This document shows, piece after piece, positions 1,957 through 31,037 of a DNA stretch of 64,000 nucleotides. The DNA lies in contig NZ_FNTZ01000001.1 in the NCBI RefSeq assembly GCF_900105555.1, positions 2,728,001 to 2,792,000 of the forward strand, given 5' to 3'. Both the position numbers and the translations under genes were made by a program. This stretch comes from Pseudomonas coleopterorum. Its GTDB lineage: Bacteria > Pseudomonadota > Gammaproteobacteria > Pseudomonadales > Pseudomonadaceae. The notes beneath the pieces were generated by a model. The model saw only the letters and a program-made list of their open reading frames with translations. It was not told where the DNA came from and made no database searches. Every line of letters starts with the position of its first letter. Position 1 is the stretch's first letter.

Positions 1957-1959
1957 GGA

Positions 1960-8980: not shown

Positions 8981-9029
8981 ATTTACTCCGCGCCACGAAA
9001 TGGCTGTGATGAATTTGTGGCGCGCGAGA

Positions 9030-9326: not shown

Positions 9327-9706
9327 TCTGGTTCCCTCTTGCCGGGTCGCAGGCTCCAGATCCATTGCAGCCACTTGGGTGGCGTGCCGGTCTCGAACGC
9401 TTCGATCAGGCTTATGCAGGTGGCGACACAGAACAGACCTGCCACGAACGAGGAAAATCCCGAGGTTTTCGTCCACGCCAGGGAAAGCAGCTCAGCGGCA
9501 CCGAAGTATCCGCCCACCCATCCTACGATCAGGTAGCCGATGCGCTGCCAGGCGCTGATGTCCTTGGCGAACAGGATGAAAAAGAACGCCCCGCCGAATG
9601 CACCCACAACAGACGATAGGTCGACGCCTGGGAACATGCTGGCGATGGTGATACCGGTTCCGCCAACAATCACCGGCGCTGCTGCGGTTGTCATTGCATC
9701 AGCCAT
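9323..9706 (-). CDS. Putative holin
   Basis: A protein of 127 residues from ATG 9706 (GAGG ribosome-binding site; the upstream in-frame ATG at 9733 lacks one). It has hydrophobic segments near 12-30, 38-60, 62-82 and 85-105, ending in a charged tail 'LRPGKREPE'. This is close to LydA/class III-type phage holins. Holins permeabilise the inner membrane at a set time to release endolysin. No endolysin gene is next to it, so that gene probably lies to the left of the window. Confidence 0.65.
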   Translation of the reverse strand: MADAMTTAAAPVIVGGTGITIASMFPGVDLSSVVGAFGGAFFFILFAKDISAWQRIGYLIVGWVGGYFGAAELLSLAWTKTSGFSSFVAGLFCVATCISLIEAFETGTPPKWLQWIWSLRPGKREPE

Positions 9707-9739
9707 ATCGTTGCCTCTAACTTCATTGGGCATGCCTAT

Positions 9740-9994
9740 CTACCACGGCTTAGGTCGTGCCCAATGCATGCCGGTGGCGAAGCTGTATAGGGCGAAAATG
9801 ATGATTGCGGTACTGAGGATGGTGCAGAGCAGAGTGACCCGATCGGTCTCGTGCTCTGTGTCCCGGTTCCTTTTCAGGCCCTGGATGATGAACAGCACGC
9901 CGAGGAACACGTTGGCGCTGATGTCGCGCTGCATGGTGTAGCTCATGAGCGCCATGGCGAATGCGAGCAGGCTCCAGCAGGTGGACCTGGACAT
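9740..9994 (-). CDS. Two-TM protein at start of lysis cassette
   Basis: A protein of 84 residues from ATG 9994 (GGAG five bases upstream). It has two hydrophobic helices, about 5-45 (broken by MQRD) and 55-78, separated by a charged loop with many Arg, Asp and Glu. It is the first gene after the terminator at about 10.03 kb, so it is probably the first late gene. It may be an antiholin or holin regulator; unproven. Confidence 0.6.
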   Translation of the reverse strand: MSRSTCWSLLAFAMALMSYTMQRDISANVFLGVLFIIQGLKRNRDTEHETDRVTLLCTILSTAIIIFALYSFATGMHWARPKPW

Positions 9995-10016
9995 AACCGC
10001 TCCAAATTCCGGGCAC

Positions 10017-10043
10017 AAAAAAGCCCGGAGGTTTGTCCGGGCT
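10017..10043 (-). terminator. Intrinsic terminator before the lysis genes (tR'-like)
   Basis: On the minus strand an 8-bp perfect stem (AGCCCGGA/TCCGGGCT) with a 6-base loop is followed by five or six T. It lies after the Q-position gene and about 23 bases before the first lysis ORF. In lambda the same spot holds tR', which blocks late genes until antitermination. Confidence 0.8.
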
Positions 10044-10107
10044 CGCTGTGTTTGCCAGAGGCAAAATATTAACTATGGCGAAATGATGCCGCCAGCCGTG
10101 CGGGAAG

Positions 10108-10689
10108 TCAAGCAGCGTCTTTCATCTGGTAAATCACGGCTCCAACTGGACTCAACGCCATGCGATCCAAGTCTTCGCAGCACTCGAATGTCAGGGTGAT
10201 CACCGGCTCCCAGTCGCGCGCCCATGCACAGGATTCGATCCTCACCCCATACTCGGCCATCAGCCACGAGCGAAACCCCTCAGGCTTGATCAGCGGATCC
10301 TCATTGGCCGACTGCCCGCCCTGGTGCATGTAGCAGTACCGGCGCATCACCCCCTTGACCACGTACTCGAGCTTTTCACGCTTCGCCGCGGTCATCCGCT
10401 TGGACTTCGAAACGACCATGCCGAAAACCAGTTCCTCTGCTGCCTCTCGGATATCGTCATCCCGGTTGGCGGCGTACATGAACTCTCCGAACAAACGAAC
10501 CTGCGGATGAAGCCTGGCGATGGCTGACTGGATGTGTCCTGCCAGTGCACCGTGCATCGCGTGATTGGCTGTTGGCCCGCGCTCGGTCTTTTGCACCACC
10601 ACACCCAGCTGGACGACGTCCGAGGTCTGGCCGGGAGCGGGGTTGTAGGTGCAGTCATGCCAGGCCTGGCGTGCTGAGTTGATGTTCAT
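10108..10689 (-). CDS. Unknown protein in the position of late antiterminator Q
   Basis: A protein of 193 residues. It is mostly helical, with a basic middle ('VSKSKRMTAAKREKLEYVVKGVMRRYCYMH', about 90-120) and a Cys pair near 170 ('FECCED'). I do not recognise the family. Its location, last in the nin block and immediately before a strong terminator and the lysis genes, is where Q sits in lambda, so a role in late gene activation is a reasonable guess. It is coupled by ATGA to ninG. Confidence 0.6.
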   Translation of the reverse strand: MNINSARQAWHDCTYNPAPGQTSDVVQLGVVVQKTERGPTANHAMHGALAGHIQSAIARLHPQVRLFGEFMYAANRDDDIREAAEELVFGMVVSKSKRMTAAKREKLEYVVKGVMRRYCYMHQGGQSANEDPLIKPEGFRSWLMAEYGVRIESCAWARDWEPVITLTFECCEDLDRMALSPVGAVIYQMKDAA

Positions 10690-11270
10690 GCCGACTCCCT
10701 CCCCTTCAATTCTCGAATCAGCGCTCGGTAGTGCGCCTTGATCTCTTTCAACTGTTCGATGGTGTAGCGCTGGGGCTCATGAGGCCCTTCGATCCAATCC
10801 ACCCTCTCGGCGCCGATGCGATGCATCAGGTTGATCCGGTAGTTCACGATGTCGCCGGACTTGTGGTTGTTGCAGGGCGCGCATTGCTTGTGGACGTTCA
10901 GCGGCTCGAAGCGCAGCTCGGGGCTGGCTGCGACCGTGCGGTAATGCCCGGCGTGGTATTGGCCTTCGTGGTGACGGCCACAGCTCACACAGGGCAGGCC
11001 TGCATCACGGAGACGGATCCACTCGTTGAATACGGTTTGCGTCTCCTTGAGGTGGTCCGCCCTGCTCTTCAGCTTCTCCTTGCGGACCTTGATCTCGCGG
11101 CGTTCGCGCTGCTCGAACGACTTCCGCTCGGCGGCCTGCTTCGCACGAACGATCACCACAGCGCAGTCAGGGCTGCACCAGATCTGAAAGCTCTTCGTAG
11201 GCACGAATGAGGCCCTGCAGGTAGCGACCTTGCACTTCTTCGGACGAGGTCTCTTGGTTGTGAGCGTCAT
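10686..11270 (-). CDS. ninG: NinG recombination-associated protein
   Basis: A protein of 194 residues matching lambda NinG (Rap) in layout. It has an N-terminal zinc-finger-like Cys set ('KKCKVATCRASF... WCSPDC'), a basic coiled-coil region about 45-85, then a second Cys/His set 'CVSCGRHHEGQYHAGHY' and 'CAPCNNHKSGD', an HNH-like metal-binding core. NinG is thought to be a Holliday-junction-type endonuclease aiding phage recombination. It overlaps the 55-residue ORF upstream (TGA/ATG). Confidence 0.9.
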   Translation of the reverse strand: MTLTTKRPRPKKCKVATCRASFVPTKSFQIWCSPDCAVVIVRAKQAAERKSFEQRERREIKVRKEKLKSRADHLKETQTVFNEWIRLRDAGLPCVSCGRHHEGQYHAGHYRTVAASPELRFEPLNVHKQCAPCNNHKSGDIVNYRINLMHRIGAERVDWIEGPHEPQRYTIEQLKEIKAHYRALIRELKGRESA

Positions 11271-11434
11271 AGCGCTTTCCTCGCGGCACGCTCGACTTCC
11301 GCCTTGTGTTCTCGCCGTCGGCGATCAAGCTCAGCAATGGCCTGAGCTCTCCTTCGCTCGATGAGATGGCCTGTAATGACACCGATGACGACCGCCACGA
11401 AAACGACGATCCAGAATTGTTCTGCGGCGCTCAT
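11267..11434 (-). CDS. Single-TM small protein (55 aa) in nin block
   Basis: The sequence between ninG and ninB encodes a 55-residue protein, 'MSAAEQFWIVVFVAVVIGVI' followed by a basic helical tail (RRRAQAIAELDRRRREHK). Residues 7-24 form one clear membrane helix with positive charges after it. The start ATG overlaps the ninB stop (TGATG) and its stop overlaps the ninG start. This double coupling is strong evidence that it is translated. Function unknown. Confidence 0.7.
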   Translation of the reverse strand: MSAAEQFWIVVFVAVVIGVITGHLIERRRAQAIAELDRRRREHKAEVERAARKAL

Positions 11435-11850
11435 CAGTAGCGACCCCCATAGTTATCTTGGGCCGCCCAGCGGACGCCCTCTTGGCTGCCGAAAGCCTCC
11501 ACCCATGTGATCAGGCTGGCGCACTGAGATACGCTGAGCTTCGAGGTGTGCTCGAAGATCATGTCGATGCCGTGACCATCCAGAGCCGGAACCAGCATCG
11601 GAGAGTGCCCGGCCTCCCTGAGCCAGGCCGCGGTGCACAGCCGCTTCCACACGTCGACCGACAGCGTTTGGCCGTGCCATTTCACTTGGGCTGCGATCTG
11701 GCTCAGCAGCTTATGGAGCAGCTTGTTCTGCTCGCCACTGCGGTCCAGGTCCTTGATCACGATCTTCTTGGGCTTGGTGAAGTCGGTGCCGTCGAGGAAG
11801 CCATTGAGCCGGCTGGTGTCGGCGCGACTACGCATGATGATCTCAGTCAT
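11434..11850 (-). CDS. ninB: NinB recombination protein
   Basis: A protein of 138 residues with the NinB pattern: 'KPKKIVIKDLDRSGEQNKLLHKLLSQIAAQVKW' followed by 'VDVWKRLCTAAWLREAG' and 'TSKLSVSQCASLITWVEAFG'. NinB (lambda Orf) is a DNA mediator protein that can substitute for RecFOR and loads the annealase on SSB-coated DNA. It overlaps the Ea22-like gene by 8 bases. Confidence 0.92.
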   Translation of the reverse strand: MTEIIMRSRADTSRLNGFLDGTDFTKPKKIVIKDLDRSGEQNKLLHKLLSQIAAQVKWHGQTLSVDVWKRLCTAAWLREAGHSPMLVPALDGHGIDMIFEHTSKLSVSQCASLITWVEAFGSQEGVRWAAQDNYGGRY

Positions 11851-13546: not shown

Positions 13547-14247
13547 GAAGCCCTCCGCTTGCCAAATTTCGCCATCAACAACGCACGCGCCGAGGCGCCG
13601 TCCGCTGGTATGCCTTGCTGAATGATCCGCTCACGCGCCTGCCGATCTGCTCGCTCACTGGCCAGCTCAAGCTCGCTCTTCTGGCTGTCGTGGCCGATGC
13701 CGGTCAGGATCTTGCCGTCGAGTGGCTGGCCTTCCTGGGCGCGGCGTAGGATCACTTCGTAGTTGCGGTCGAAGCGCTGGCGCAGTCCCTTGTCGTCCTG
13801 CTTGGCGCCGCGCAAATCGAACAGGCCGGTGGCCTTGGCTGCCAAGTGGACGGCTTCATGGCTGTAGGTGCCCATCAGCGCTTCGATCCATGCGTCAGCC
13901 ACTGGCGGCATGCCGAAGTCTTCCGGGCTAGGTTTGCACAGGGCAATGAACTCGCCGACGCTCGGGGCGAATGGCTTCTTGGCCTTGCGGCAGTTCTGGA
14001 TACCGAACTCGATCTGCTCGAGCGAGCGGATACCCTCGGCGGCGAAACCCTTGATCCATTCTTCCTTGGCAGCATTCAGCGCTTCGGTGGATGGCCATGC
14101 CTGGCGCCAAGCCGGGAAGATCCCACGCAGCTTGCGGAACAGTGCATTGACGACCTCGGTAGTTTCCGGGCAGACGGGCATAGCCTGGGTGGGCTCGACC
14201 GCCGGCAGATTCGTGGCTGCTGCCATCAGCTGGTTCACGGACTTCAT
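13543..14247 (-). CDS. Replication protein P-like (DnaB helicase loader)
   Basis: A protein of 234 residues with features of the lambda gpP family: 'VVNALFRKLRGIFPAWRQAWPSTEALNAAKEEW' near 30-65, 'IEFGIQNCRKAKKPFAPSVGEFIALCKP' near 80-110, then a conserved Trp/Glu helix. Lambda P recruits host DnaB to the origin bound by O. It overlaps the O-like gene by 4 bases. Confidence 0.88.
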   Translation of the reverse strand: MKSVNQLMAAATNLPAVEPTQAMPVCPETTEVVNALFRKLRGIFPAWRQAWPSTEALNAAKEEWIKGFAAEGIRSLEQIEFGIQNCRKAKKPFAPSVGEFIALCKPSPEDFGMPPVADAWIEALMGTYSHEAVHLAAKATGLFDLRGAKQDDKGLRQRFDRNYEVILRRAQEGQPLDGKILTGIGHDSQKSELELASERADRQARERIIQQGIPADGASARALLMAKFGKRRAS

Positions 14248-15041
14248 GTCTTCACCACAAGGCCATCAGCCCATGAGGTGTCGTCGAAGTCAGGTTCGCT
14301 GGTCTTGCGCACAGGGAACGGATGGATGCTCGCTCCAGCGGCGCCAGTGGCCGTGTCGCGCTTGATCCACTTCACCAGTAGGCTGACCCATGCCTGCTGC
14401 GTCTCGAAGCGTCCTGACGCAGCGTAATGGCAAACAAACGCGCCGATTGCCTCATGGTTGAACAGGGACACGGCCAGGCCCATGCGCTTGGCAAAGGCTG
14501 CCAGCAGGCGGGTATCGGGCTGCCACTCAAGTGTCATTTCGCAAGGCGACTTTGGGTCGACCGGCTCGGACAAATTTTCATCGCTCGCGCGTAGTGTGTT
14601 GTGTTGATCTTCTCCTATTCCCTTCCCTTCCCTTCCGGGGTCGAGCGATCGACGACCAGTCGACGACTCCTCGACGAATTGTCGGCGACCACTCTCCGAC
14701 TCGTCGTCGAATGCAGCGGGAAAAGCAGGGTGTTTGAAATTCTTCTTCTCGATCTTCTGGTGCTTCCAGCCCATGACATGCAAGTACTGCTTGCCCTCGG
14801 CGGTGTAGCTGCAGGTCAGGCTTGCAGCCTCCAATTGATCGAGCAGCGCGCTCACCTCGTCGGTGGTGATGTCGTCGCCAGGGAAGACCAGGGCCTTGAT
14901 TGTCCGGGGCGATAACGGGTGGTTGCCGCCGTCGTCACAGAAATTCCAGATGCCAATAAAGAGCAGGCGCGCCAGCGGGCTGCAGGACATTACCTGCTCG
15001 CTCGACCAGAACTCAGGTTTGACGGTACGGATGCGGGCCAT
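14244..15041 (-). CDS. Phage replication initiator, O-like
   Basis: A protein of 265 residues. The opening 'MARIRTVKPEFWSSEQV' is the hallmark of a phage replication family with a winged-helix N-terminus (about 1-100). A variable charged linker (about 110-170) follows, then a C-terminal DnaT/primosome-type domain ('WQPDTRLLAAFAKRMGL... AWVSLLVKWIKRD'). Two ATGs overlap; I prefer the second, at 15041, seven bases from GGAGG. In lambda-like phages the origin lies inside this gene. The linker DNA near 14.63 to 14.71 kb holds repeated TCGACGA-type words that could be iterons. Confidence 0.8.
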   Translation of the reverse strand: MARIRTVKPEFWSSEQVMSCSPLARLLFIGIWNFCDDGGNHPLSPRTIKALVFPGDDITTDEVSALLDQLEAASLTCSYTAEGKQYLHVMGWKHQKIEKKNFKHPAFPAAFDDESESGRRQFVEESSTGRRSLDPGREGKGIGEDQHNTLRASDENLSEPVDPKSPCEMTLEWQPDTRLLAAFAKRMGLAVSLFNHEAIGAFVCHYAASGRFETQQAWVSLLVKWIKRDTATGAAGASIHPFPVRKTSEPDFDDTSWADGLVVKT

Positions 15042-15280
15042 CATTGGGCCTCCAGTTTTGCTATAAGGTCGCGAGTGCTGCGCTCAATGGCGAGCCGCTC
15101 TCCTTCCGGCATTTGGTTGTAATAGAACAAGGCGCGATGCAGGCTCTTAGCTGCATCAAGCAGTTCTGGGTAATCGGAGTAGTCGCCCATATGAGCGCTT
15201 GTGATACGGCCGCCCGCCAGCAGCATCCCGAGCCTGATAGGAGCGGTAGCGCCTTCGATAACCACGGTTACACGACTCAT
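15041..15280 (-). CDS. Small phage protein, unknown
   Basis: A protein of 79 residues between the Rha-type regulator and the O-like gene, overlapping both by a few bases. It has a beta-type start ('MSRVTVVIEGATAPIRLGMLL') and a helical C-terminus. No family recognised. Coupling to both neighbours supports it. Confidence 0.65.
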   Translation of the reverse strand: MSRVTVVIEGATAPIRLGMLLAGGRITSAHMGDYSDYPELLDAAKSLHRALFYYNQMPEGERLAIERSTRDLIAKLEAQ

Positions 15281-16083
15281 AGGCGACCCTCCCCTATAAG
15301 TTCCACCAGCTCAGCGAAGCGCTCGACGTACCAGTGAGGCTGGGTTTCGCGAGGGCTATTTGGACTGGTCAGGTTCTTGCCGAAATGGAGGCCCTTTTCA
15401 GTGATCGACCAGAATTCGACGACGCCGCGTTTGGCGCTGTTGCGCTGGCACTTCTTGATGATTCCACGTGACTCAAGGTGACGATTGAATACCCTGGCAG
15501 TGCTTCGGATGCCCTGCTCTTTCAGCAAGTCGGTCAAGGGGAGGGTTCGCATGGACGAGCCGCCAGTTGCGTCTGGGGCTGCATCAATGGCATAGCCTGG
15601 TAAGAAGCTGGACTCCAGGCCGTTATTTGCAGCGATCCGGTTCAGCATGGCCATCTGGCTGGAGGGTGATGGCTTGAGCAGGCGCGTGTAGCACTCGAAG
15701 ATCGCTATCTCGCCGTTTACCTTGGCGCCGTTGATCTTCTTTGGCGGAGTAACCGCCTGCTCTTCAAGTTCACGCAAGCGGCGAATGACCTTGTGCCGCA
15801 GCGGGACGCTGTAGCCAGTGACGAGCGTCTCCGTCAGCTCGCGGTCGAGGTTGAAACACGGCAGTAAGCGCCCTGATCCATCGAGATAGCTGCCCCCAAA
15901 ACTGGGGTCAGTGATCTTGAGCTCAGTGAGCATATTGCGGATGTCGCGCATGACGTGGTCGTGCCGCTTCCCAGTCAGTTTTGCGATCTCCCGCGACGAC
16001 ATAGTGCGCGCCACGTTTTCATCACCATCATTTTGTGGCGCGGGACTGCTTAGGCCCTTGGCTTTTCTGTTGGATTCGGTCAT
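15277..16083 (-). CDS. Rha-family phage regulatory protein
   Basis: A protein of 268 residues. Residues about 27-110 match the Rha/pRha domain: 'TMSSREIAKLTGKRHDHVMRDIRNML', then 'YLDGSGRLLPCFNLDRELTETLVTGYS' and 'RHKVIRRLRELEE'. The C-terminal part (about 190-240) looks like a winged helix ('ARVFNRHLESRGIIKK... WSITEKGLHFGKN'). Rha proteins interfere with phage growth in hosts lacking IHF and act as antirepressor-like regulators. The gene lies just after the tR1-like terminator. Confidence 0.88.
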   Translation of the reverse strand: MTESNRKAKGLSSPAPQNDGDENVARTMSSREIAKLTGKRHDHVMRDIRNMLTELKITDPSFGGSYLDGSGRLLPCFNLDRELTETLVTGYSVPLRHKVIRRLRELEEQAVTPPKKINGAKVNGEIAIFECYTRLLKPSPSSQMAMLNRIAANNGLESSFLPGYAIDAAPDATGGSSMRTLPLTDLLKEQGIRSTARVFNRHLESRGIIKKCQRNSAKRGVVEFWSITEKGLHFGKNLTSPNSPRETQPHWYVERFAELVELIGEGRL

Positions 16084-16121
16084 TATTCACCTCACAGAGT
16101 TGTAACGAATGCAGTACAAAG

Positions 16122-16147
16122 AACCACCTGGCCGGGTGGTTTTTTTT
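16122..16147. terminator. Intrinsic terminator hairpin between cro operon and rha (tR1-like)
   Basis: A 7-bp perfect stem (AACCACC/GGTGGTT) with a 6-base loop has eight T on the plus side and TTCTTT on the minus side, so it could act in both directions. No plus-strand gene runs into it, so its likely use is attenuation of the PR transcript, as tR1 does in lambda. Confidence 0.65.
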
Positions 16148-16168
16148 CGTCTGCGGTTTGTGGCAGAG

Positions 16169-16465
16169 CTATTCGGGGCCTTCATCAGTCCCTCCCTCCC
16201 CCTTTTCAGGGCCTGTCGAGTTCTTTGCAGGCGCTCGCTTTGCTACTGGCAGGTTGCGGATTTTCCCTGCCCCCTTTGGCCTGGTCTTCTCGAAGAACCG
16301 TTCTGCGCCAAGCTTTGCGGCCAGTTCGTCGGGCGTCATGCCTTCGGCTTTGGCCAGCCGTTCAAGCTTTTCGTAGAGACGAGCGAGGATCCCATGGCTG
16401 ATGGTTGTTTCAGGCACGTAGCCTCCTTCAGGGACTTCAGCCCACTTGTTGGTTAGCGGTAACAT
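16169..16465 (-). CDS. Early phage protein, unknown
   Basis: A protein of 98 residues from ATG 16465 (a TTG three codons upstream is possible). The N-terminal half is helical ('ISHGILARLYEKLERLAKAEGMTPDELAAKLG') and the C-terminus is basic and low-complexity. It overlaps the end of the RHH gene by 29 bases. By position it replaces lambda cII, but no HTH of the CII type is visible. Confidence 0.5.
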   Translation of the reverse strand: MLPLTNKWAEVPEGGYVPETTISHGILARLYEKLERLAKAEGMTPDELAAKLGAERFFEKTRPKGAGKIRNLPVAKRAPAKNSTGPEKGEGGTDEGPE

Positions 16466-16628
16466 CGCGCTCAACGATGCTTTCCAGCTTCTCCTCGACG
16501 CACATGCGCACGAACACGGCGAGCTGCAGCTTGTGCAGGCGCGCTACGGCCTTGAGGGCCTCGTAGGTTTCGTCGTCGTAGCGGGACTTGATCTCCCGGT
16601 CTTTCAGGTGGCGTGGCTCGTCGTACAT
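16437..16628 (-). CDS. Ribbon-helix-helix (Arc-type) DNA-binding protein
   Basis: A protein of 63 residues: 'HLKDREIKSRYDDETYEALKAVARLHKLQLAVFVRMCVEEKLE'. The strand-helix-helix order and the 'KSRYDDETYEAL' opening fit the Arc/MetJ superfamily. It is the second gene of the PR operon, so it is probably an early regulator of phage transcription. A GGAG-type site precedes the ATG. Confidence 0.7.
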   Translation of the reverse strand: MYDEPRHLKDREIKSRYDDETYEALKAVARLHKLQLAVFVRMCVEEKLESIVERDVTANQQVG

Positions 16629-16657
16629 GTGTTGCTCCTTGTGGCTGATGAAGTGGT

Positions 16658-16843
16658 TTAAGCGGCAGATTTGTTAATCGATTCTTCGTACAGGGCTTCC
16701 ACGGCCTTGCCGGTTTCGTACTTCACCCCAGCGCCTTTGCTGGCACGGTGGATAGTCGGCTGCGTGGTACCTACGCGATCGGCGACGGCTTTTTGGGAGA
16801 AGCCGTGCGCAAACAGACTGTTCAGCATTTCTTGCACGGTCAT
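16658..16843 (-). CDS. Cro-like repressor
   Basis: A protein of 61 residues from ATG 16843, preceded by GGAGGCACGAAA. It contains a helix-turn-helix 'FSQKAVADRVGTTQPTIHRASKGAGVK', of the same TQPT-H type as the neighbouring CI ('VTQPTVHRIITG'). It is divergent from cI and the first gene of PR, the standard Cro place. It would bind the same ATACGC..GCGTAT operators and favour lytic growth. Confidence 0.88.
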   Translation of the reverse strand: MTVQEMLNSLFAHGFSQKAVADRVGTTQPTIHRASKGAGVKYETGKAVEALYEESINKSAA

Positions 16844-16856
16844 TTTCGTGCCTCCG

Positions 16857-16919
16857 ATACGGCGTTGTATTGATCGCATGATACGCAGGCGTATTAGCGA
16901 AGGCAATACACTCCCGCAA
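16857..16919 (-). promoter_or_regulatory. PR promoter and OR operators
   Basis: On the minus strand TTGCGG (16919-16914), 17 bases, then TAATAC (16896-16891) forms a good sigma-70 promoter for cro. The 14-bp palindrome ATACGCAGGCGTAT at 16881-16894 overlaps the -10 box. A related site ATACGGCGTTGTAT lies at 16857-16870. A weaker half-site is near 16905. The first site is identical to one at PL. Confidence 0.75.
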
Positions 16920-16941
16920 TACGTTTTTCTATTGGTGTCGA

Positions 16942-17607
16942 ATGAGCATTGGGGATCGAATAGCTTCGGAAATGGGCGCTCGCGGCTGGAGCGAGGGCGA
17001 GCTGGCGCGTCAAGCCAACGTGACGCAACCGACGGTTCACAGGATTATCACTGGAGAATCGCGATCACCCAGAAGAGACAATGTTGAAAAGATTGCGAAA
17101 GCTCTTCGGGTCTCCAGCAAATGGCTTTGGGACGGCGGGACTGCCGAGGATAGGGTTTCGGCGGACTTCAACGTGGAGCCTGTAGCGAGCCCCACTCGAT
17201 ATCACGAATACCCCGAGATAAGCTGGGTACAGGCTGGGATGCCAATGGAAGTTGAAGAGTTAGCCAACATAGCGAATTGCGAGAAGCACCCATCTGACGC
17301 CTGGGCGGGGCCGCGTGGCTTTTGGTTGAAGGTTCGCGGACCTTCGATGACGTCGCAGGGAGGTATATCTTTTATTGAGGGGATGGTGATTTTGGTTGCG
17401 CCAGACTTTGATATAGAAACAGGAAATTATGTTGTCGCAAGGATGATCGATACCGATGAGGCCACCTTCAAGCAGTTTATATGGGACTCAGGTCGCGCTT
17501 ATCTGAAGCCATTAAACCCCGCCTTCCCAACCGTAGAGGTCGATGACACATGGGTGATAGTTGGGAAGGTCGTCGACGCCAAGTGGCCTAGGTCAATATT
17601 AGGCTGA
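16942..17607 (+). CDS. CI-type prophage repressor (S24 peptidase)
   Basis: A protein of 221 residues. The N-terminal XRE helix-turn-helix is at about 18-40 ('GELARQANVTQPTVHRIITG'). A LexA/CI-like self-cleavage site Ala98-Gly99 ('WVQAGMP') follows, then a catalytic Ser135 ('VRGPSMTSQGG') and Lys177 ('ATFKQF'). This is the RecA-responsive repressor that holds the prophage silent, so induction by DNA damage is expected. GC is lower than in surrounding host DNA, as usual for phage immunity regions. It converges with the VRR-NUC gene, with a 6-base gap. Confidence 0.94.
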   Translation: MSIGDRIASEMGARGWSEGELARQANVTQPTVHRIITGESRSPRRDNVEKIAKALRVSSKWLWDGGTAEDRVSADFNVEPVASPTRYHEYPEISWVQAGMPMEVEELANIANCEKHPSDAWAGPRGFWLKVRGPSMTSQGGISFIEGMVILVAPDFDIETGNYVVARMIDTDEATFKQFIWDSGRAYLKPLNPAFPTVEVDDTWVIVGKVVDAKWPRSILG

Positions 17608-17613
17608 TGAATT

Positions 17614-18357
17614 TCAGGCCCTGATCAGTCGCAGCAGCCTAAAGTTCAGACCCAGTGCTATCAGCGTAGGGATTGTGACTCGCTGATGTGCTGTCAGGCG
17701 GTCTTGGACTTTTACCTCGACCAGCAGCACCTGGCCTTCTTTCACCAGCTCCAGGTCCGGCCATCCATTCGATAAAGATCCATCATACCTGGAGTATATC
17801 TCCAGCAGACTGTGCCAGAAACTAACTGGCACAGCCTCAAGGAACTGTTTAACGCTGGCCTTACCGGATGGCGCTTTAGGCCAGACTGCTCCTGACTCAA
17901 AGCAGATTTTTTCAAAGTCGCGCTGAACACTATCTGCTTCGCTAATCCTATCGTTAATCAGGCCGTGCATAGCAGCCATTGCCGCCGCATCAACACGCTT
18001 TTCATTCCTAATTATCCCGTCAATGCCAACAGCGGTCATGGGAACCAGATAGTGGATGGCGTGCAGGAATGGCGTGGCTCGATCCCCGATGCCCTGATAG
18101 GGATTTCGGTCGATCAAATACGGCAGGATAAGAGCTCGGAATATCGATCTGATTGTGTTTCCCTCCGTATGCTCGCCACACCACCCCTCGCTCTTCATCA
18201 GACCTAGCGCTGCATTTTCTGGGGATCCAGAAAATGGAATCCCCACCCTCTCTTCGCAGGGGCTCCATTGCCGTCCGGCCCCTGGAAGTGGCAACGGCGC
18301 CGTATCGGTTCCGCGCCAATAAACCCCCTGACCTGCTTTTTCCTTACCGCAATCCAT
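17614..18357 (-). CDS. VRR-NUC domain nuclease in the immunity region
   Basis: A protein of 247 residues. The C-terminal 55 residues match the VRR-NUC fold of PD-(D/E)xK nucleases: 'NGWPDLELV', then 'VLLVEVKVQDRLTAHQ', then a helix and strand. The D, E, K and Q positions are all present. The first 190 residues are helical and unrecognised, with several Cys residues ('SEGWCGEHTEG'). The gene is convergent with cI and starts just inside the PL operator region, so it may be expressed from the prophage. In lambda the space beside cI encodes the RexAB exclusion system; a superinfection-exclusion or defence role is inferred from that. Replication-linked nuclease activity is the alternative. Confidence 0.8.
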   Translation of the reverse strand: MDCGKEKAGQGVYWRGTDTAPLPLPGAGRQWSPCEERVGIPFSGSPENAALGLMKSEGWCGEHTEGNTIRSIFRALILPYLIDRNPYQGIGDRATPFLHAIHYLVPMTAVGIDGIIRNEKRVDAAAMAAMHGLINDRISEADSVQRDFEKICFESGAVWPKAPSGKASVKQFLEAVPVSFWHSLLEIYSRYDGSLSNGWPDLELVKEGQVLLVEVKVQDRLTAHQRVTIPTLIALGLNFRLLRLIRA

Positions 18358-18406
18358 GCCATGCCCGCCTGCTCATTCCTGGGGAGGCAGACTCTCATCA
18401 AAAATA

Positions 18407-18448
18407 ATACGCAGGCGTATTGACGCAATCGATACGCTGACGTATTGT
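18407..18448 (+). promoter_or_regulatory. PL promoter with two CI/Cro operators
   Basis: TTGACG (18420-18425), 17 bases, TATTGT (18443-18448) gives a strong rightward promoter. Palindromes ATACGCAGGCGTAT (18407-18420) and ATACGCTGACGTAT (18432-18445) overlap the -35 and the spacer/-10. The first is identical to the OR site. A TATTAT on the minus strand near 18401-18406 could serve the VRR-NUC gene. Confidence 0.8.
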
Positions 18449-18486
18449 TCACCCATCGAGACGCAACAGCCCCTCACGAGGCCCTC

Positions 18487-18512
18487 AGCGGATCGGTCCG
18501 CTCTTTAACAAT
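18487..18512 (+). promoter_or_regulatory. Hairpin plus boxA antitermination site in PL leader
   Basis: AGCGGA-TCGG-TCCGCT forms a 6-bp tetraloop hairpin at 18487-18502. It runs directly into CGCTCTTTAACAAT (18499-18512), a match to the rRNA-operon boxA (GCTCTTTAACA). The order hairpin then boxA is that of rrn leaders and the reverse of lambda nut sites. It lies about 40 bases after the predicted PL start. The next 200 bases are non-coding and rich in short hairpins such as TAGCC-CCGAAA-GGCTA. Confidence 0.75.
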
Positions 18513-18725
18513 CCGCGCAACACGAACAAAGACGGCACCGCCTCTACGGCGACCGGAGATCAGATAGCCCCGAAAGGCTACCAACGCGAGGCGCACCTCG
18601 ACGGCTGACTAGAGCGAAAGGCTCGAACCGAGTGAATGACCCGCTATGCGGTGCCAGCGGAAACCGAACGATTTACTGAAGCGCCTGGGCGACCGGGCGC
18701 TTTGGAAATCAACGGAGGCACGACC

Positions 18726-19010
18726 ATGCAATGCGACTGCAAAGACAAATACCTTGAGGCCGTAAGGGAGCACGTGGTTGCTCGAGCTCCACAAGGCAGC
18801 GAAGGGTTCGAAATCGAGTTGGCCGGCTACGGCATGACCTTCGGTGACGATGGAGTTAACTGGATTTTCAAGGTCGACGTGAAAGGCGAGTACAAAGCTC
18901 CCAAGAAGGCCGGCGGGATGAAATCGGTGAAGGTCAACACTTTCATATCGGCAAACTTCTGCCCTTTCTGCGGTGTGAAATCCAAGGCGGATGAAGCTGA
19001 GGCCGCCTGA
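18726..19010 (+). CDS. First PL-operon protein, Cys-rich, unknown
   Basis: A protein of 94 residues from ATG 18726 (GGAGG nine bases upstream). It begins 'MQCDCKDKYLEAVREHV' and ends with 'ANFCPFCGVKSKADEAEAA'. The paired Cys at both ends could hold a zinc ion. The middle is beta-type ('FEIELAGYGMTFGDDGVNWIFKVDVKGEY'). No family recognised. It is the first coding gene after a long leader. Confidence 0.7.
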   Translation: MQCDCKDKYLEAVREHVVARAPQGSEGFEIELAGYGMTFGDDGVNWIFKVDVKGEYKAPKKAGGMKSVKVNTFISANFCPFCGVKSKADEAEAA

Positions 19011-19047
19011 CCCACCCGTTGGCATTCGCAAGAGTGCCCATCGGGGT

Positions 19048-19168
19048 GTGATCTGGCGTTTGCCTCGCTTGGGACAGGGGTGCCCTGCGTGCGGGGTGCT
19101 GTCGACAAGGTAGCGCTGCTGAAATCGACGTAAGTCTTTCGGGTTCGAATCCCGGCCAGATCACACCA
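19048..19168 (+). ncRNA. tRNA-like RNA with extended acceptor stem and internal insertion
   Basis: A perfect 10-bp pairing (GTGATCTGGC at 19048-19057 with GCCAGATCAC at 19155-19164) is followed by A and CCA (19165-19168). Just inside is a good T-arm: TCGGG-TTCGAAT-CCCGG (19139-19155). A possible D-arm (GTGCT...AGCGC, loop with AAGGT) and a weak anticodon-like arm with loop CTGAAAT precede it. About 40 extra bases lie between the 5' acceptor strand and the D-arm, so the total of about 121 is too long for a normal tRNA. There is no ORF here. Confidence 0.5.
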
Positions 19169-19230
19169 CCGATGCGGACGATTCTGCGGCCTATAACCGC
19201 CCACCTGCATCACCCCAACCGGAGAACGAC

Positions 19231-19371
19231 ATGCTCCTACTGATCCTGATCGGCGCAGCGCTCAGCCATGCGCGGCCAGAACCGCCTCCTGAAAGCGGCC
19301 TGCCAACCGATCCGCTGCGCATCCATCGCGAGCGCTGGCGAACACCCATCGGGCCACGATCATTCTGGTGA
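19231..19371 (+). CDS. 46-residue small protein with hydrophobic start
   Basis: ATG 19231 with GGAG nine bases upstream opens a 46-codon frame: 'MLLLILIGAALSHARPEPPP' then a basic part ending 'TPIGPRSFW'. The first 12 residues are strongly hydrophobic, like a short signal or membrane anchor. It lies between the tRNA-like element and a terminator hairpin. Coding status is likely but not certain. Confidence 0.5.
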   Translation: MLLLILIGAALSHARPEPPPESGLPTDPLRIHRERWRTPIGPRSFW

Positions 19372-19670
19372 TCAGTGTCCCGCCAAAAACTCCTGACTCT
19401 GAGAGATCGGAATTGGAAAGCCCGGGTATTCTCGGGCTTTCGCCTGCACCACCTGCACGGCCTGCGGTTTTCTGCTGGTCCTGCACCCACTCCAACCCAC
19501 ACGACCGCATCGGCGGGTGCCAGGCTGGCTATTCACGCCCAGCTTGGTCCCTGTTGCCTGGCATCCGACCAATGCGGTCAGAGGATCACTCATGGAACCT
19601 GGATATTGCGAAGGTGAAGCCTGCGGTCGTGAAGGCTGCGCGGGCGTTATCGGCGAGCACAAGGTTATGA
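19368..19670 (+). CDS. Doubtful ORF with zinc-finger-like Cys/His
   Basis: A GTG at 19368 overlaps the previous stop (GTGA) and opens a 100-codon frame containing 'FCWSCTHSNPHDRIGGCQAGY', a possible zinc knuckle like those in other phage small proteins. Against it: no clear ribosome-binding site, a terminator-like hairpin lies inside it, and its last 79 bases overlap the better-supported next gene. It may be a decayed gene. Confidence 0.3.
   Translation: MISVPPKTPDSERSELESPGILGLSPAPPARPAVFCWSCTHSNPHDRIGGCQAGYSRPAWSLLPGIRPMRSEDHSWNLDIAKVKPAVVKAARALSASTRL
19417..19440. terminator. Terminator-like hairpin in PL operon
   Basis: AAAGCCCG (19417-19424) pairs with CGGGCTTT (19433-19440) around an 8-base loop; short T runs follow on both strands. 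Its place 1 kb downstream of PL, after the boxA leader, matches tL-type terminators that need antitermination to be read through. Confidence 0.5.
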
Positions 19671-20032
19671 ACTGCAGTTGTCACATCAATCCCCCCTGCG
19701 GGGCATGCACCGCGCCACGCGGCTACTGCGAGGCTTGCGGATGGGAAGAGTCGGAAGAACCAGCTCCCGAGCCACAGCCATTAAGCCAGAAGGAAAAGGA
19801 TTTTTGGAAAGCGCAGGCCGAAGAATGGGAGCGACTTAGGAATGCCCCGCTGGATAACACGAAGGTCAGTTGGCGCTATGCCCCGCATACCAACGCCTCA
19901 ATGATCAAGGAAGGCGTATACCCCGTAAGCATGAGCCGCGAAGAGGTTGAGCGAGAGGTAACTGGCACCTTCGGTGGCCGGTTCGAGCGTTTCGGCAACG
20001 GCCACTTCAAGTACATCGCCTACACCGACTAA
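19592..20032 (+). CDS. Cys-rich zinc-binding phage protein
   Basis: A protein of 146 residues from ATG 19592 (GAGG seven bases upstream). The first 60 residues contain about ten Cys and several His ('YCEGEACGREGCAGVIG', 'CSCHINPPCGACTAPRGYCEACGWE'), suggesting two zinc sites. A Pro/Glu linker follows, then a helical and beta C-terminus ('VSWRYAPHTNASMIKEGVYPVSMS'). Possibly nucleic-acid or protein binding. Family not recognised. Confidence 0.75.
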   Translation: MEPGYCEGEACGREGCAGVIGEHKVMNCSCHINPPCGACTAPRGYCEACGWEESEEPAPEPQPLSQKEKDFWKAQAEEWERLRNAPLDNTKVSWRYAPHTNASMIKEGVYPVSMSREEVEREVTGTFGGRFERFGNGHFKYIAYTD

Positions 20033-20050
20033 CCCACCGAGGACCCCACC

Positions 20051-20266
20051 ATGGCCAAACGATTGGAGAAACTTCCGCGCCGCCGTTCACGCCAAGCTTG
20101 GCCACGGTCGGCGGTCCAGCAGTGCTTTGACGTTGCATTCAGCCACACCGCGCGAGCGCGCAGCTTCATGGTCGCTTGCGACTTCAAGTACGCCCAGCAG
20201 TGCCTTGCGGATGCTGCGCACGCTCATGAATTGGCGCGGCAGATGCTCAGGAGTATTCGCGCATGA
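20051..20266 (+). CDS. Small basic phage protein
   Basis: A protein of 71 residues, with a very basic N-terminus ('MAKRLEKLPRRRSRQAWPRS') and a helical rest ('HTARARSFMVACDFKYAQQCLADAAHAHELARQML'). It is coupled to the next gene by a short overlap. No family recognised. Confidence 0.6.
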   Translation: MAKRLEKLPRRRSRQAWPRSAVQQCFDVAFSHTARARSFMVACDFKYAQQCLADAAHAHELARQMLRSIRA

Positions 20267-20691
20267 ACGCACTTCAGATCGCCCAGGCGGAGTATGACAA
20301 CCGCCTTCCCGCGCCGGTCAACGAAGACCTGGTCGAAACCGAATGGTTGGAAGCCAGCGCTGAGCGCCTCATGGACGGCCAAGCCGTCGAGTGGGGCTAT
20401 CGCAAGGCTGACAAAGGCCAGGTCACTCCGGACGAGTTTGCTACTGCTGTGCAGGCGCACCTGGTCGACCGTCAGATCGCCGGCGAAGACCAGCGCGACG
20501 CCTTCGCCCGACTGGTGATCGCCAATCTCGTGTGGGGCACGCGCTTCGATGGACGGGCCAACGCTGAATACCTGATGGGCAGCCGTACCGCGCTGAAGGG
20601 GATCGCCATGGACCTGCTGCGGCCACACGCCGAGCGCGCCGTTGAGCTTGATCAGCAGTGGCAGCGCGAATCAGAGGAGTGCGGATTTTGA
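20263..20691 (+). CDS. Phage protein, unknown
   Basis: A protein of 142 residues, all-helical in appearance and acidic overall. It begins 'MNALQIAQAEYDNRLPAPV', a type of opening common in short phage and plasmid proteins. It overlaps both neighbours by 4 bases. Function unknown. Confidence 0.7.
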   Translation: MNALQIAQAEYDNRLPAPVNEDLVETEWLEASAERLMDGQAVEWGYRKADKGQVTPDEFATAVQAHLVDRQIAGEDQRDAFARLVIANLVWGTRFDGRANAEYLMGSRTALKGIAMDLLRPHAERAVELDQQWQRESEECGF

Positions 20692-20879
20692 GCGTCCACT
20701 CGAAGCTTTCCACAATGCTCGACGAGCTGCAGCACCCTTCGACTCCACCCCATTACGAGGGCTACGTCGAGCGGAAGATCGTCCAGGCGCTCGAAGAGCA
20801 GGCGATCGACGTCGAGGACTTCCATTACTACTGCGTTCGGTTCCGCAAGGTCTGCGGACAGCGCAAGGAGGCAGCATGA
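20688..20879 (+). CDS. Small phage protein with TTG start
   Basis: The best start is TTG 20688, overlapping the previous stop (TTGA) with GAGGAG eight bases upstream; this gives 63 residues. An upstream ATG at 20658 lies inside the previous gene. The protein is helical, with 'YVERKIVQALEEQAIDVEDFHYYCVRFRKVCG'. Function unknown. Confidence 0.6.
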   Translation: MSVHSKLSTMLDELQHPSTPPHYEGYVERKIVQALEEQAIDVEDFHYYCVRFRKVCGQRKEAA

Positions 20880-21097
20880 GTACTGCACCGGTCAAATCCC
20901 TGGTCGACGAACAAATCGAAGAACTGCCCGCTCACATGGCCATTCCAGACGATCGGGTGTTGATGGTCTTCAAAGGCCTGACCATGTGGGATGCGATGCA
21001 GGCCGCCGAGCGCGCCCACATCTCTAATCCCCAGGCATGGAGCCGCAGGGCCTGCCTGTGTGGTGAGTGGACGCTGAGCTATGAGGTGCGAGCATGA
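20876..21097 (+). CDS. Small phage protein, unknown
   Basis: A protein of 73 residues from ATG 20876, with AAGGAGG seven bases upstream and ATGA coupling to the previous gene. Sequence 'MVFKGLTMWDAMQAAERAHISNPQAWSRRACLCGEWTL'. No known family. The frame extends upstream but without a start site. Confidence 0.65.
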   Translation: MSTAPVKSLVDEQIEELPAHMAIPDDRVLMVFKGLTMWDAMQAAERAHISNPQAWSRRACLCGEWTLSYEVRA

Positions 21098-21552
21098 AAA
21101 TGGAAACCAAACTTGGTGTTCTGAAAGGCGCCTGCCTCAACCATCAGCTTGTAGGCAGCCGCATTACCTGCAACCCGCCGCCCACCAACACAGATCAGGA
21201 TGTGCTTGTTCTCACGGACAAAGACCTCTTTGAGACGCACCTCAAGCCAAGACTTGTTGAGCACAATTTCGACAATGACGGCAGTGACTGTGGGGATATC
21301 AGCGAGTACTTGGGCGAGGAAGAGCTCACTTTTCAGTCTTTCTCTCACGGCGATCTGAACCTGATCATCACTTTTAGCGATCAGTTTTACAGGCGCTTCT
21401 TGGCAGCTACTTCAATAGCCAAACTGCTGAACATCATGCCGAAAGATCACCGGATTGCGCTGTTTCAGGCGGTCCTTTATGGGAACAGCTACACCCCGCT
21501 GCCTTTCCATATGCCGCCTCCAGCGCCTTGGGCGGAAAACCCACCCGCCTGA
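21094..21552 (+). CDS. Possible minimal nucleotidyltransferase-fold protein
   Basis: A protein of 152 residues. Near residue 20 it has 'LVGSRITCNPPPTNTDQDVLVL', which resembles the GS...DxD core of Pol-beta-type nucleotidyltransferases. 'GDLNLIITF' near 90 could supply the third carboxylate. After that the sequence is helical ('RFLAATSIAKLLN'). Such phage proteins are usually labelled hypothetical. Target (tRNA, protein or nucleotide) unknown. It is coupled by ATGA to the preceding gene and followed by the repeated spacer described at 21557. Confidence 0.55.
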   Translation: MKMETKLGVLKGACLNHQLVGSRITCNPPPTNTDQDVLVLTDKDLFETHLKPRLVEHNFDNDGSDCGDISEYLGEEELTFQSFSHGDLNLIITFSDQFYRRFLAATSIAKLLNIMPKDHRIALFQAVLYGNSYTPLPFHMPPPAPWAENPPA

Positions 21553-21556
21553 TGCA

Positions 21557-21578
21557 ATAACCCCTTCCCCATTCAATC
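21557..21578 (+). repeat. Stop-linked TAACCCCTTCCCC spacer, copy 1
   Basis: ATAACCCCTTCCCCATTCAATC lies just after the stop of the nucleotidyltransferase-like gene. A hairpin with stem GCGCC/GGCGC follows, then the GGAG of the bet gene. A near-identical block is at 27380, and shorter versions are at 25184, 28727 and 29523. Confidence 0.6.
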
Positions 21579-21615
21579 GCAGCGCCCCGGTGACGGTATG
21601 GCGCAAGGAGCAACC

Positions 21616-22440
21616 GTGTCCGCACTAATCAAACAAGCCGAGCATATGCCGGCCATGTCCGAGGACGCTCTTGTAGAGGTTCTCAGCGGTAGCCTTTACC
21701 CCGGTGCTGCTCGCAACTCGGTCGTGATGGTGCTTGCCTACTGCAAGGCAGCTCAACTTGATCCGATGTTGAAGCCGGTGCACATCGTACCGATCTGGAG
21801 CAAGGCAGCCGGGAAGATGGTGGACACCGTAATGCCCGGTGTTGGCCTGTATCGCATTCAAGCGGCACGCACCGGCCAGTACGCAGGTATCAGCGAGCCG
21901 GAATATGGTCCGCCCGTCAGCCTCAAGCTAGGCAATGTCGATGTGACGTTTCCAGAGTGGTGCCGCGTTACGGTCAAACGGCAGATGAGCAATGGTTTGG
22001 TGGCAGAGTACACCGCCAACGAGCGCTGGCTTGAGAACTACGCCACAGCAAGCAGAGACTCCGCAGCGCCGAATGCGATGTGGAAAAAGCGCTCATACGC
22101 CCAGCTTGCGAAATGTGCAGAAGCACAAGCACTTCGCAAGGCTTTCCCAGAGGTAGGGTCGGTACCAACTGCCGACGAGATGGAAGGCAAGGTCTTCGAG
22201 GAAGGGCCTCGCGAGGTCGCTTCTCAACGTCAACCTGAGCAGCCTATAGAGGCCGAACCGCTTGAAACCTACCCAGACGCCAAGCTGCAGGAAAACCTGC
22301 CGAAATGGCGGGCTGCAGTCGAGGCTGGTCGCTCATCTCCTGAACACCTGATTGCAACTGTGAGCAGCAAGTACACGCTCACCCAAGAGCAGACCGACAC
22401 CATCAATCAGCTCAAGCCCATCGAAGGTGAAGCCGCATGA
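21616..22440 (+). CDS. bet: Bet/RecT-family single-strand annealing protein
   Basis: A protein of 274 residues from GTG 21616 (GGAG five bases upstream; an ATG six codons earlier lies in the hairpin). The core 'LYPGAARNSVVMVLAYCKAAQLDPMLKPVHIVPIW' and 'DTVMPGVGLYRIQAARTGQYAG' is typical of lambda-type Bet proteins. It ends with a charged C-terminal region. It anneals complementary single strands made by the neighbouring exonuclease during phage recombination. It overlaps the exonuclease start by 4 bases. Confidence 0.93.
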   Translation: MSALIKQAEHMPAMSEDALVEVLSGSLYPGAARNSVVMVLAYCKAAQLDPMLKPVHIVPIWSKAAGKMVDTVMPGVGLYRIQAARTGQYAGISEPEYGPPVSLKLGNVDVTFPEWCRVTVKRQMSNGLVAEYTANERWLENYATASRDSAAPNAMWKKRSYAQLAKCAEAQALRKAFPEVGSVPTADEMEGKVFEEGPREVASQRQPEQPIEAEPLETYPDAKLQENLPKWRAAVEAGRSSPEHLIATVSSKYTLTQEQTDTINQLKPIEGEAA

Positions 22441-24074
22441 AAATTCATAACGTAGCTCAGGGCTCAGCTGAATGGCATGCTCTGCGCGCCCAGTACCGAA
22501 CTGCTTCTGAAGCCCCGGCCATGATGGGCGCTTCGAAGTACCAAACCCGCACCGAACTGCTGAGCATGAAGAAAACCGGCATCGTGCCGGAAGTGACCGT
22601 CCAGCAGCAGCGAATCTTCGACCGCGGTCATGCCACCGAGGCGCTGGCCCGGCCAATCGTCGAAGGTCGCATAGGCGAAGACCTGTTCCCGATCGTGGGC
22701 ACCAGCGGCAACCTGCTCGCGTCTATGGACGGCGCAACGATGCTTGGTGAGATCCTCTTCGAACATAAGCTCTGGAACGAATCCTTGGTCGCCCAGGTGC
22801 GCGCAGGCCAGCTTGAGCCTCACTATTATTGGCAGCTGGAGCAGCAGCTTCTTGTAAGCGGTGCCGAGATGGTGATCTTCGTTTGCTCCGACGGGACGGA
22901 AGAGAATTTCGTATCGATGGAGTACCGCCCAGTGCCGGGCCGCGCTGAGCAATTAGTGGAAGGCTGGAAGCAATTCGAGGTGGACCTCGCCGCTTTCGAA
23001 TCCGAGCCTGCCGCTGCCGTATCCGTTGGAGTATCACCAGAAAGCCTGCCAGCGCTGCGCATCGAAGTCACCGGCATGGTCACCGCTAGCAACCTTGAGC
23101 AATTCAAGGCTCACTCGCTGGCCGTATTCAATGGCATCAACACCGACCTGCAGACGGATCAGCACTTCGCTGACGCAGAGAAGACAATCAAATGGTGTGG
23201 TGATGTCGAGGAGCGCCTCGCCGCAGCCAAGCAGCACGCCCTGAGCCAGACCGAAAGCATCGACGCCCTCTTCCGCGCTATCGACGAGATCAGCGCGCAA
23301 GCCCGGGCGAAGCGCCTAGAGCTGGACAAGTTGGTGAAGGCGCGCAAGGTAGCCATTCGCGACGAGATCGTGATCAGCGCGGCCAAGGCTCTGCAGGACC
23401 ATCTGGACAAGATCAACATTTCGTTCGGCGGCAAGGTGCGCATGCCTGTCGTCAAGGCCGACTTCGCCGGAGCCATCAAGGGCAAGAAGACCATCAGCAG
23501 CCTGCGCGATGCCGCCGACTCGGAACTGGCCCGGGCAAAGATCGAAGCCAGCCAGATCGGCGACGGAATCCGCGCAAACCTAGACAGCCTGCGCAGCCTA
23601 GCCAAGGATCACGCTTTCCTGTTCAACGACGCCCAGCAGCTGGTGCTTAAGGATAACGATGACCTGGTGTCGGTCATCAAGGTGCGGATCAACGAGCACG
23701 AAACCGCAGAAGCCAAGAAGCTCGAGGTTCAACGCGAGCAGATCCGCCAGCAGGAGTTGCAGCGTATCGCTGACGAGCAGGCCGCTGCGGCCATGGCCGC
23801 AGAGGTGAAGCCTGAGCCGGCAGCCGCGCCAGTGGCAGAGACTCCGAAACCCGCTGCCGTACGGCAGGTCACCGGATCCGCGAAGGTAGCGCCGAAGCCT
23901 ACCAAGCTTGAAGCGCGGGTGACCGACCTTGAAGCGCTGGTGAAAGCCGTGGCCGCCGGCGAAGTCCCTATTGCGGTCCTTACAGTCAACTGGCAAGCCC
24001 TCGACGACTTGGTTGACGCCAAGGGCTCAGAATTCAGCATGCCGGGGGTGACCCTGGAGCAGGTGGCAGCATGA
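22437..24074 (+). CDS. YqaJ-type exonuclease with long C-terminal extension
   Basis: A protein of 545 residues. The first about 195 residues are a lambda-Exo/YqaJ nuclease: 'GSAEWHALRAQYRTASEAPAMMG', 'RGHATEALARP', Asp98 in 'SMDGAT' and Glu109/Lys111 in 'LFEHKLW'. The rest is unusual for Exo: about 230-440 is a long helical coiled-coil part, about 440-490 is an Ala/Pro linker, and the last 60 are helical. The extension resembles DUF1351-like phage recombination accessory proteins, so this may be a fusion. It works with Bet for double-strand break recombination. Confidence 0.88.
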   Translation: MKIHNVAQGSAEWHALRAQYRTASEAPAMMGASKYQTRTELLSMKKTGIVPEVTVQQQRIFDRGHATEALARPIVEGRIGEDLFPIVGTSGNLLASMDGATMLGEILFEHKLWNESLVAQVRAGQLEPHYYWQLEQQLLVSGAEMVIFVCSDGTEENFVSMEYRPVPGRAEQLVEGWKQFEVDLAAFESEPAAAVSVGVSPESLPALRIEVTGMVTASNLEQFKAHSLAVFNGINTDLQTDQHFADAEKTIKWCGDVEERLAAAKQHALSQTESIDALFRAIDEISAQARAKRLELDKLVKARKVAIRDEIVISAAKALQDHLDKINISFGGKVRMPVVKADFAGAIKGKKTISSLRDAADSELARAKIEASQIGDGIRANLDSLRSLAKDHAFLFNDAQQLVLKDNDDLVSVIKVRINEHETAEAKKLEVQREQIRQQELQRIADEQAAAAMAAEVKPEPAAAPVAETPKPAAVRQVTGSAKVAPKPTKLEARVTDLEALVKAVAAGEVPIAVLTVNWQALDDLVDAKGSEFSMPGVTLEQVAA

Positions 24075-25913: not shown

Positions 25914-26159
25914 ATGAACATCTATCGGCACACGTTCAAGGCCACCTGCCCTTCGGACGGAGACACGATCATCTACAGCCTGGAAATTCGCTCTTTGGCC
26001 GTGGTGATGGTCGAGCACATCCGGACCGCTACGGCGCTGATCAAATCCGGCTATCACGAGCGCATCGCAGATGAACTGGCAGAGCGCCTCGGCGGTGATC
26101 AAACCATCAAGGCTGTGCACCAAGGCGTCGAGATCGAAACGGTGAGGCTGAGCGGATGA
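25914..26159 (+). CDS. Small phage protein, unknown
   Basis: A protein of 81 residues: 'MNIYRHTFKATCPSDGDTIIYSLEI', then 'VEHIRTATALI' and 'HERIADELAERLGG'. A mixed alpha/beta small domain. It overlaps the TGT-like gene by 4 bases, so the two may work together. Function unknown. Confidence 0.65.
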   Translation: MNIYRHTFKATCPSDGDTIIYSLEIRSLAVVMVEHIRTATALIKSGYHERIADELAERLGGDQTIKAVHQGVEIETVRLSG

Positions 26160-30994: not shown

Positions 30995-31037
30995 AGGGTT
31001 TTGGAGAATAAGCAAAAACGGTAGTAAATGGTAGAGA

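Follow-up and report, generated by a model that had tools for sequence, protein, structure and literature searches.

What is a nuclease gene doing between the repressor gene cI and the promoter PL of a prophage? The question is raised by a stretch of 64,000 nucleotides from the 4.92-Mb genome of Pseudomonas coleopterorum (contig NZ_FNTZ01000001.1, positions 2,728,001 to 2,792,000), called here the window, in which this interval holds a gene, found once in the genome, for a protein with a predicted FAN1-type fold and a conserved active site. The gene has a cargo-like distribution among related phages, and the operators upstream of it form a mirror image of those beside cI. Our best single guess, at slightly under even odds (roughly 45%), is that the protein is a CI-controlled lysogen nuclease, carried as cargo between cI and PL, that would block rival phages. 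The argument turns on two genes:

16942..17607, plus strand: CI-type repressor with a helix-turn-helix (HTH) and an S24 peptidase-like domain
17614..18357, minus strand: FAN1-type VRR-NUC nuclease, 247 aa, ATG start

A single FAN1-type domain

The cI and nuclease open reading frames (ORFs) are convergent, with 6 bp between their ends, and the ATG start and the motifs GWPD (residues 198-201), VEVK (213-216), DRL and Q225 bear out the first-pass annotation, which had read from the letters a 247-residue VRR-NUC gene in the immunity region, convergent with cI. Its description of a complete VRR-NUC C-terminus holds for these motifs, but the Pfam VRR_NUC (PF08774) match at residues 171-242 scores 18.8 bits (E 0.0017), below the curated cut-off of 23.8; PF08774 is carried by distant relatives such as P0011 and P0017. 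Homologues of the nuclease were found at 37-83% identity, and three pairs of close copies from related loci (numbered with L) show a third-position bias, with changes at codon positions 1/2/3 of 2/1/28 (L008-L010), 26/16/119 (L006-L014) and 6/11/41 (L011-L012), so the ORF is more than a chance one; a further pair, L008-L009, has 9 changes (3/2/4), too few to inform. A foreign origin judged by base composition is unsupported, because the GC content of cI (53.6%) is as low as that of the nuclease gene (53.8%), window positions 1-31000 having 59.5%.

In the predicted structure, residues 28-247 form one nuclease domain in which ~140 residues separate strands 1 and 2, and residues 1-27 are of low confidence. 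Structure and profile agree on a FAN1-type fold over the whole domain, with helices between the two strands, and on this model almost the entire protein is of FAN1 type. Residues 1-190, earlier set down as an unrecognised half, are by both lines of evidence the first part of this one domain, and a separate N-terminal domain was accordingly rejected. All 14 aligned family members have E47, E65, D201, E214, K216 and Q225, and the FAN1 catalytic set (helix Glu, Asp, Glu, Lys) is present, with E47 or E65 as the helix Glu. SAP and TPR regions are absent, ~30 low-confidence residues preceding the domain, and the protein is therefore a FAN1-type domain only and not a FAN1 orthologue. A phmmer search with the single protein against PDB sequences gave 4 matches only, unrelated and with E of 0.19 or worse, and a viral structure library gave no match with E under 0.001, short VRR-NUC proteins ranking first.

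Human FAN1 and Pseudomonas PaFAN1 are like the prophage nuclease throughout the nuclease domain: helices are inserted between strands 1 and 2, and the PD-(D/E)XK core, the conserved glutamates and the Q are common to them. The prophage nuclease differs in comprising the nuclease domain only, shows 15-19% identity in structural alignments, and has its family on prophages and plasmids. FAN1 itself acts as a monomer, cutting 5' flaps but leaving Holliday junctions uncut. The stand-alone VRR-Nuc Holliday junction resolvases psNUC, stNUC and saNUC are described in PMC4103454 as short, dimeric and without the insertion, whereas the prophage nuclease, with its ~140-residue insertion, falls outside such a short-core group.

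Cargo past cI and in tail blocks

The DNA after cI, referred to below as the slot, was compared in 34 loci with related CI, of which L041 ends at cI, L022 ends ~0.7 kb after cI and L051-L054 match the CI N-terminus only; ORFs were called with a longest-ORF script, and slot contents are given from among those listed. By tblastn over the 34 loci (E 1e-6, half of the query covered), the nuclease was found only in L021, the window's own phage. Five loci (L023, L024, L025, L026 and L045) whose CI proteins are 96.8-100% identical to one another carry five different slot gene sets, which shows the rexAB-like position assigned to the gene at the outset to be a cargo position. Aligned pairs of these loci share their DNA to ~30-350 bp past cI, then diverge and are later alike again, and none of the 11 slot genes tested by tblastn (of 13 listed) was found in any other of the 34 loci. 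The slot contents named in the argument are:

L023: 354-aa and 195-aa pair
L024: 171-aa protein and YafO toxin
L025: 268-aa protein and PIN protein
L026: 126-, 112- and 207-aa proteins
L045: 122-, 131-, 116- and 174-aa proteins
L028, 7147-8892, plus strand: 581-aa AriA/PtuA/GajA/OLD-like ATPase; CI 83-84% identical to the L023-group CIs
L029: DUF1828 protein
L032: TerB protein
L022, 5554-6207, plus strand: HipA-like kinase gene, co-directional with cI and 38 bp past it, truncated at the contig end

Several slot genes are of toxin or defence type, and most are without a name. The CI of L022 is 79% identical to the window's, with the same OR1 operator, and is followed by the HipA-like gene (Pfam score 25.3, cut-off 27) instead of the nuclease. 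In 15 of the 34 loci the slot region contains a LuxR-type HTH gene (e.g., L030 6799-7215). The L023 pair is RexAB-like by eye only, in size, order and apparent membrane segments; an identity with RexAB was rejected, neither protein having a Pfam or PADLOC match, and the 354-aa protein matches no PDB sequence. Locus L046 encodes, ~2 kb after cI (8751-11699, minus strand), a 982-aa NACHT and leucine-rich-repeat protein, possibly a STAND-type defence protein, for which PADLOC gave no match.

Full-length relatives of the nuclease are few: a search over 5.8 billion proteins gave 8 apart from the query, a genome search 2 contigs and a viral search 11 loci; a second viral scan, run with 14 sequences, turned up 11 loci but no new contig. 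The protein has no match in 50,697 phage records (E limit 0.1), and window positions 14000-24000 have no megablast match in phage records, records very near the window's genome being possibly excluded in both searches. L007 corresponds to the window's own phage, its nuclease and CI being 100% identical. L008, L009, L010 and L013, which came from the nuclease search and are not among the 34 CI loci, carry the nuclease at the same position and in the same direction; their CI is 72-73% identical and their nuclease 52-54%.

The nuclease was also found in the tail block of seven distinct contigs (L005, L006, L011, L012, L014, L015 and L016; L017 is by size and range the same contig as L005), where tail genes were named by BLASTP to Medea1 and phiAH14a genes and their annotation, and lipoproteins by eye. 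Five of the seven copies sit between a Medea1/phiAH14a-type pre-tape-measure gene and the tape-measure gene, a site that is empty in the two reference phages, with the flanking genes 10 bp apart; the copies of L014 and L015 adjoin the tail K gene. The nuclease directly follows the pre-tape-measure gene in L011 and L012. In L006 it is preceded by a 319-aa gene and others, and the nuclease and a lipoprotein-like gene have a terminator-like site on either side; 4 such sites were counted in that stretch, against 1.7 expected. Tail copies are 328-344 aa long in six of the seven contigs, with an extra conserved N-terminal region of ~100 residues (e.g., L006 9752-10060) that is missing from L016 (262 aa). 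They run on the strand opposite the tail genes in L005, L015 and L016 and are co-directional in the other four, where they could be read with the late genes; no clear promoter was found ahead of the tail copies, and in L005 and L016 the nuclease has a Gp49-family gene and an HTH gene less than 1 kb away. The Tab moron of phage JBD26 is likewise a single accessory prophage gene among late genes, but as described in PMC10884400 it blocks tail assembly, is not a nuclease and sits between terminase genes.

Remote relatives (24-25% identical) occur on one Acinetobacter plasmid and in four small E. coli plasmid records. For the Acinetobacter plasmid, PMC9455709 mentions a dif module that includes a VRR-NUC gene. 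On a tree of 25 rows the slot, tail and plasmid labels cluster: together the three need 2 changes, and none of 200 shuffles gave so low a count. A single tail group is poorly supported (38% of bootstrap trees), and on the best tree 2 changes are needed for the slot rows, so the tree does not fix how often the gene moved between sites. Other VRR-NUC-like proteins seen were a 229-233-aa protein in three genus genomes (L018, L019, L020; ~1480-2180, minus strand), matching the family at its VRR-NUC-like C-terminus only; a 517-aa ORF (L069 7383-8936, plus strand), a family member at its C-terminus with an extra N-terminal part; and, in a genome of the same order (L070 8195-12012, minus strand), a separate VRR-NUC protein of 402 aa, with an Abi_C protein and an Mrr-type endonuclease encoded nearby.

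At a given position, related phages have the nuclease gene, lack it or have another gene instead, as with a prophage moron, and on these sequence comparisons it behaves as portable prophage cargo. PMC8585504 has already presented the cI-N region as a mosaic hotspot, naming RexAB and BstA, and defence from the region beside cI is described for RexABpp of P. putida (PMC12894663). The first-pass annotation thus went too far in speaking of a new system: with the hotspot already in print, the nuclease would be a novel version of an arrangement already known.

A mirrored operator layout

The nuclease ATG lies 49 bp from the nearer of two operators that a PL-like promoter overlaps, matching the ~50 bases first estimated. 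The elements on the two sides of the cI-nuclease pair are:

16658..16906 as the listed ORF, minus strand: Cro-like HTH protein (phrog_6831), true start probably the ATG near 16843
16857..16870: OR2-like operator ATACGGCGTTGTAT, 2 mismatches
16881..16894: OR1-like operator ATACGCAGGCGTAT
16906..16919: OR3-like degenerate operator ATACACTCCCGCAA, 3 mismatches, in the register of the proximal OL operator
16878..16906, minus strand: PR-like promoter TTGCCT-17-TATCAT
18404..18409, minus strand: candidate nuclease -10 TATTAT, no clear -35
18407..18420: proximal OL operator ATACGCAGGCGTAT
18432..18445: distal OL operator ATACGCTGACGTAT
18420..18448, plus strand: PL-like promoter TTGACG-17-TATTGT, overlapping both OL operators
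21598..22440, plus strand, PL side: RecT recombinase
22437..24074, plus strand, PL side: YqaJ-type exonuclease

An exact ATACGCNNNCGTAT occurs in the 64 kb only at 16881-16894, 18407-18420 and 18432-18445. From OR toward cI the order is operator, 11 nt, degenerate operator and then TACGTTTTTC; from OL toward the nuclease it is operator, 11 nt, operator and then TATTTTTGAT, and PR and PL stand in the same register relative to their operators. The OL spacing is identical in L008, L009, L010 and L013, where the distal operator is the perfect palindrome and the proximal one degenerate, the opposite of the window, in which the proximal operator is perfect and the distal one is not. If TATTAT is taken as the nuclease -10, the distal OL operator is centred at -41.5, a distance equal to that between OR1 and the PRM position.

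In lambda, CI at OR2 (~-42) activates PRM and CI at OR3 represses it. By the same geometry the distal OL operator could activate the nuclease gene and the proximal one could repress it, a sign that is not readable from sequence. Control by CI or Cro, as first suggested, is plausible because the region upstream of the nuclease repeats the OR/PRM layout, and we consider it likely. A more specific proposal, which we think unlikely as it stands, is a second PRM-like promoter at OL, from which repressor at -41.5 would switch an exclusion nuclease on and its loss would switch it off; this self-immunity by wiring would replace an antitoxin or a protective DNA element.

The right-hand side of the prophage is marked by an integrase ORF (29825-31015), after which comes a transaldolase-type gene. 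The PL-side gene at 26156-26881 (plus strand) matches PHROG 887, "queuine tRNA-ribosyltransferase" (E 1.6e-70), and has no Pfam match; its product is possibly a DpdA-like enzyme of DNA modification and might then play a part in self-protection.

Possible roles of the nuclease

As a lysogen defence, the system would work as follows. The lysogen would make the nuclease under CI control from a promoter mirroring PRM; the nuclease would cut branched DNA (5' flaps, forks and recombination joints) of another replicating phage and so block it; and on induction of the prophage, loss of CI would lower nuclease synthesis and spare the prophage's own DNA.

Several observations weigh against this proposal. 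The promoter scan found no sigma-70-type promoter for the nuclease gene, and the conserved AT tract at OL may be an UP element of PL rather than a nuclease -10; a scan for that tract beside other cargo decides neither, since nearly all other CI loci lack this operator type. By analogy with lambda, CI in a lysogen should also fill the proximal OL operator, which overlaps the candidate -10, with repression as the result. The family is rare, present, with the window's own genome counted, in 4 of 398 genomes of the genus, 2 of 369 of the class and 2 of 398 of the phylum (at most 6 candidates scored per genome), and the other 3 genus genomes give weak C-terminal matches only. Sequence similarity to the host's own FAN1 is weak, and PADLOC assigned the nuclease to 0 families, which decides nothing on a defence role. 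Finally, the nuclease is convergent with cI, unlike RexABpp and BstA.

Lambda RexAB and P. putida RexABpp share the general place downstream of cI (PMC12894663), but RexAB is a DNA-binding and a membrane protein in the cI operon, and RexABpp is described as lying in the same operon as its own repressor gene (PMC12894663); here there is one nuclease, and no second non-overlapping ORF of at least 50 aa lies between cI and PL. BstA of prophage BTP1 is, like the nuclease, a single prophage protein beside cI in the same hotspot, and acts on phage DNA replication (PMC8585504). In that account it lies downstream of cI, is presumed to share the repressor's promoter and has a self-immunity DNA element, none of which type was identified at this locus. 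General family libraries did not name the BstA family for the nuclease, no BstA sequence having been compared.

The first alternative is an early lytic nuclease: CI at OL would shut both PL and the divergent nuclease promoter, both would start on infection or induction, and the nuclease would process recombination or replication intermediates with RecT and the YqaJ exonuclease, whose genes lie downstream of PL. Repression by CI is what one would most simply predict, because the proximal OL operator, which fits the operator consensus perfectly, lies across part of the candidate promoter, and Pennell et al. suggest roles in recombination, replication or packaging for phage VRR-Nuc proteins (PMC4103454). 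We nevertheless find it doubtful, as the gene lies outside any fixed replication or recombination module, with its family spread over the immunity slot, the tail block and plasmids; the close CI relative L022 has a different gene in the slot; and the tail copies of L005, L015 and L016 run against the neighbouring tail genes.

An abortive-infection toxin, by which infection would trigger the nuclease to cut host branched DNA and kill the cell before phage release, seems to us quite unlikely. FAN1 is a repair enzyme that cells tolerate, and with no second non-overlapping ORF of that size between cI and PL, no partner, antitoxin or sensor gene is evident. In its favour, the slot of related phages is often toxin-like (YafO, PIN, HipA-like), and VRR-Nuc proteins of another clade are antibacterial type VI secretion toxins, which cleave Y-shaped DNA and produce double-strand breaks (PMC9635880). 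These TseV-type toxins share the superfamily and structure-specific cutting, but they are assigned to a clade other than FAN1 (PMC9635880), and the prophage nuclease has neither a secretion domain nor an immunity gene.

A minimal FAN1 that helps the lysogen to survive DNA damage shares the fold of the crosslink-repair nuclease but is very unlikely, given that the host has its own full-length chromosomal FAN1 (L055, the sole Pfam VRR_NUC place in the genome), that the SAP and TPR parts are absent from the prophage protein, and that in the slots of relatives, where most genes are nameless, those with a name are toxin- or defence-like and include no repair gene.

As far as searches of an open-access library show, no FAN1-type nuclease has been reported in the cI-N slot. 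If the lysogen-defence reading is true, a structure-selective, repair-type nuclease joins the small set of proteins of the lambdoid cI-N hotspot and provides an example, open to testing, of a FAN1 domain redirected to conflict between phages, and the OL mirror of PRM would show a prophage coupling an exclusion gene directly to its repressor. Near-identical CI proteins with different cargo just past cI make this slot a practical place to seek new defence genes.
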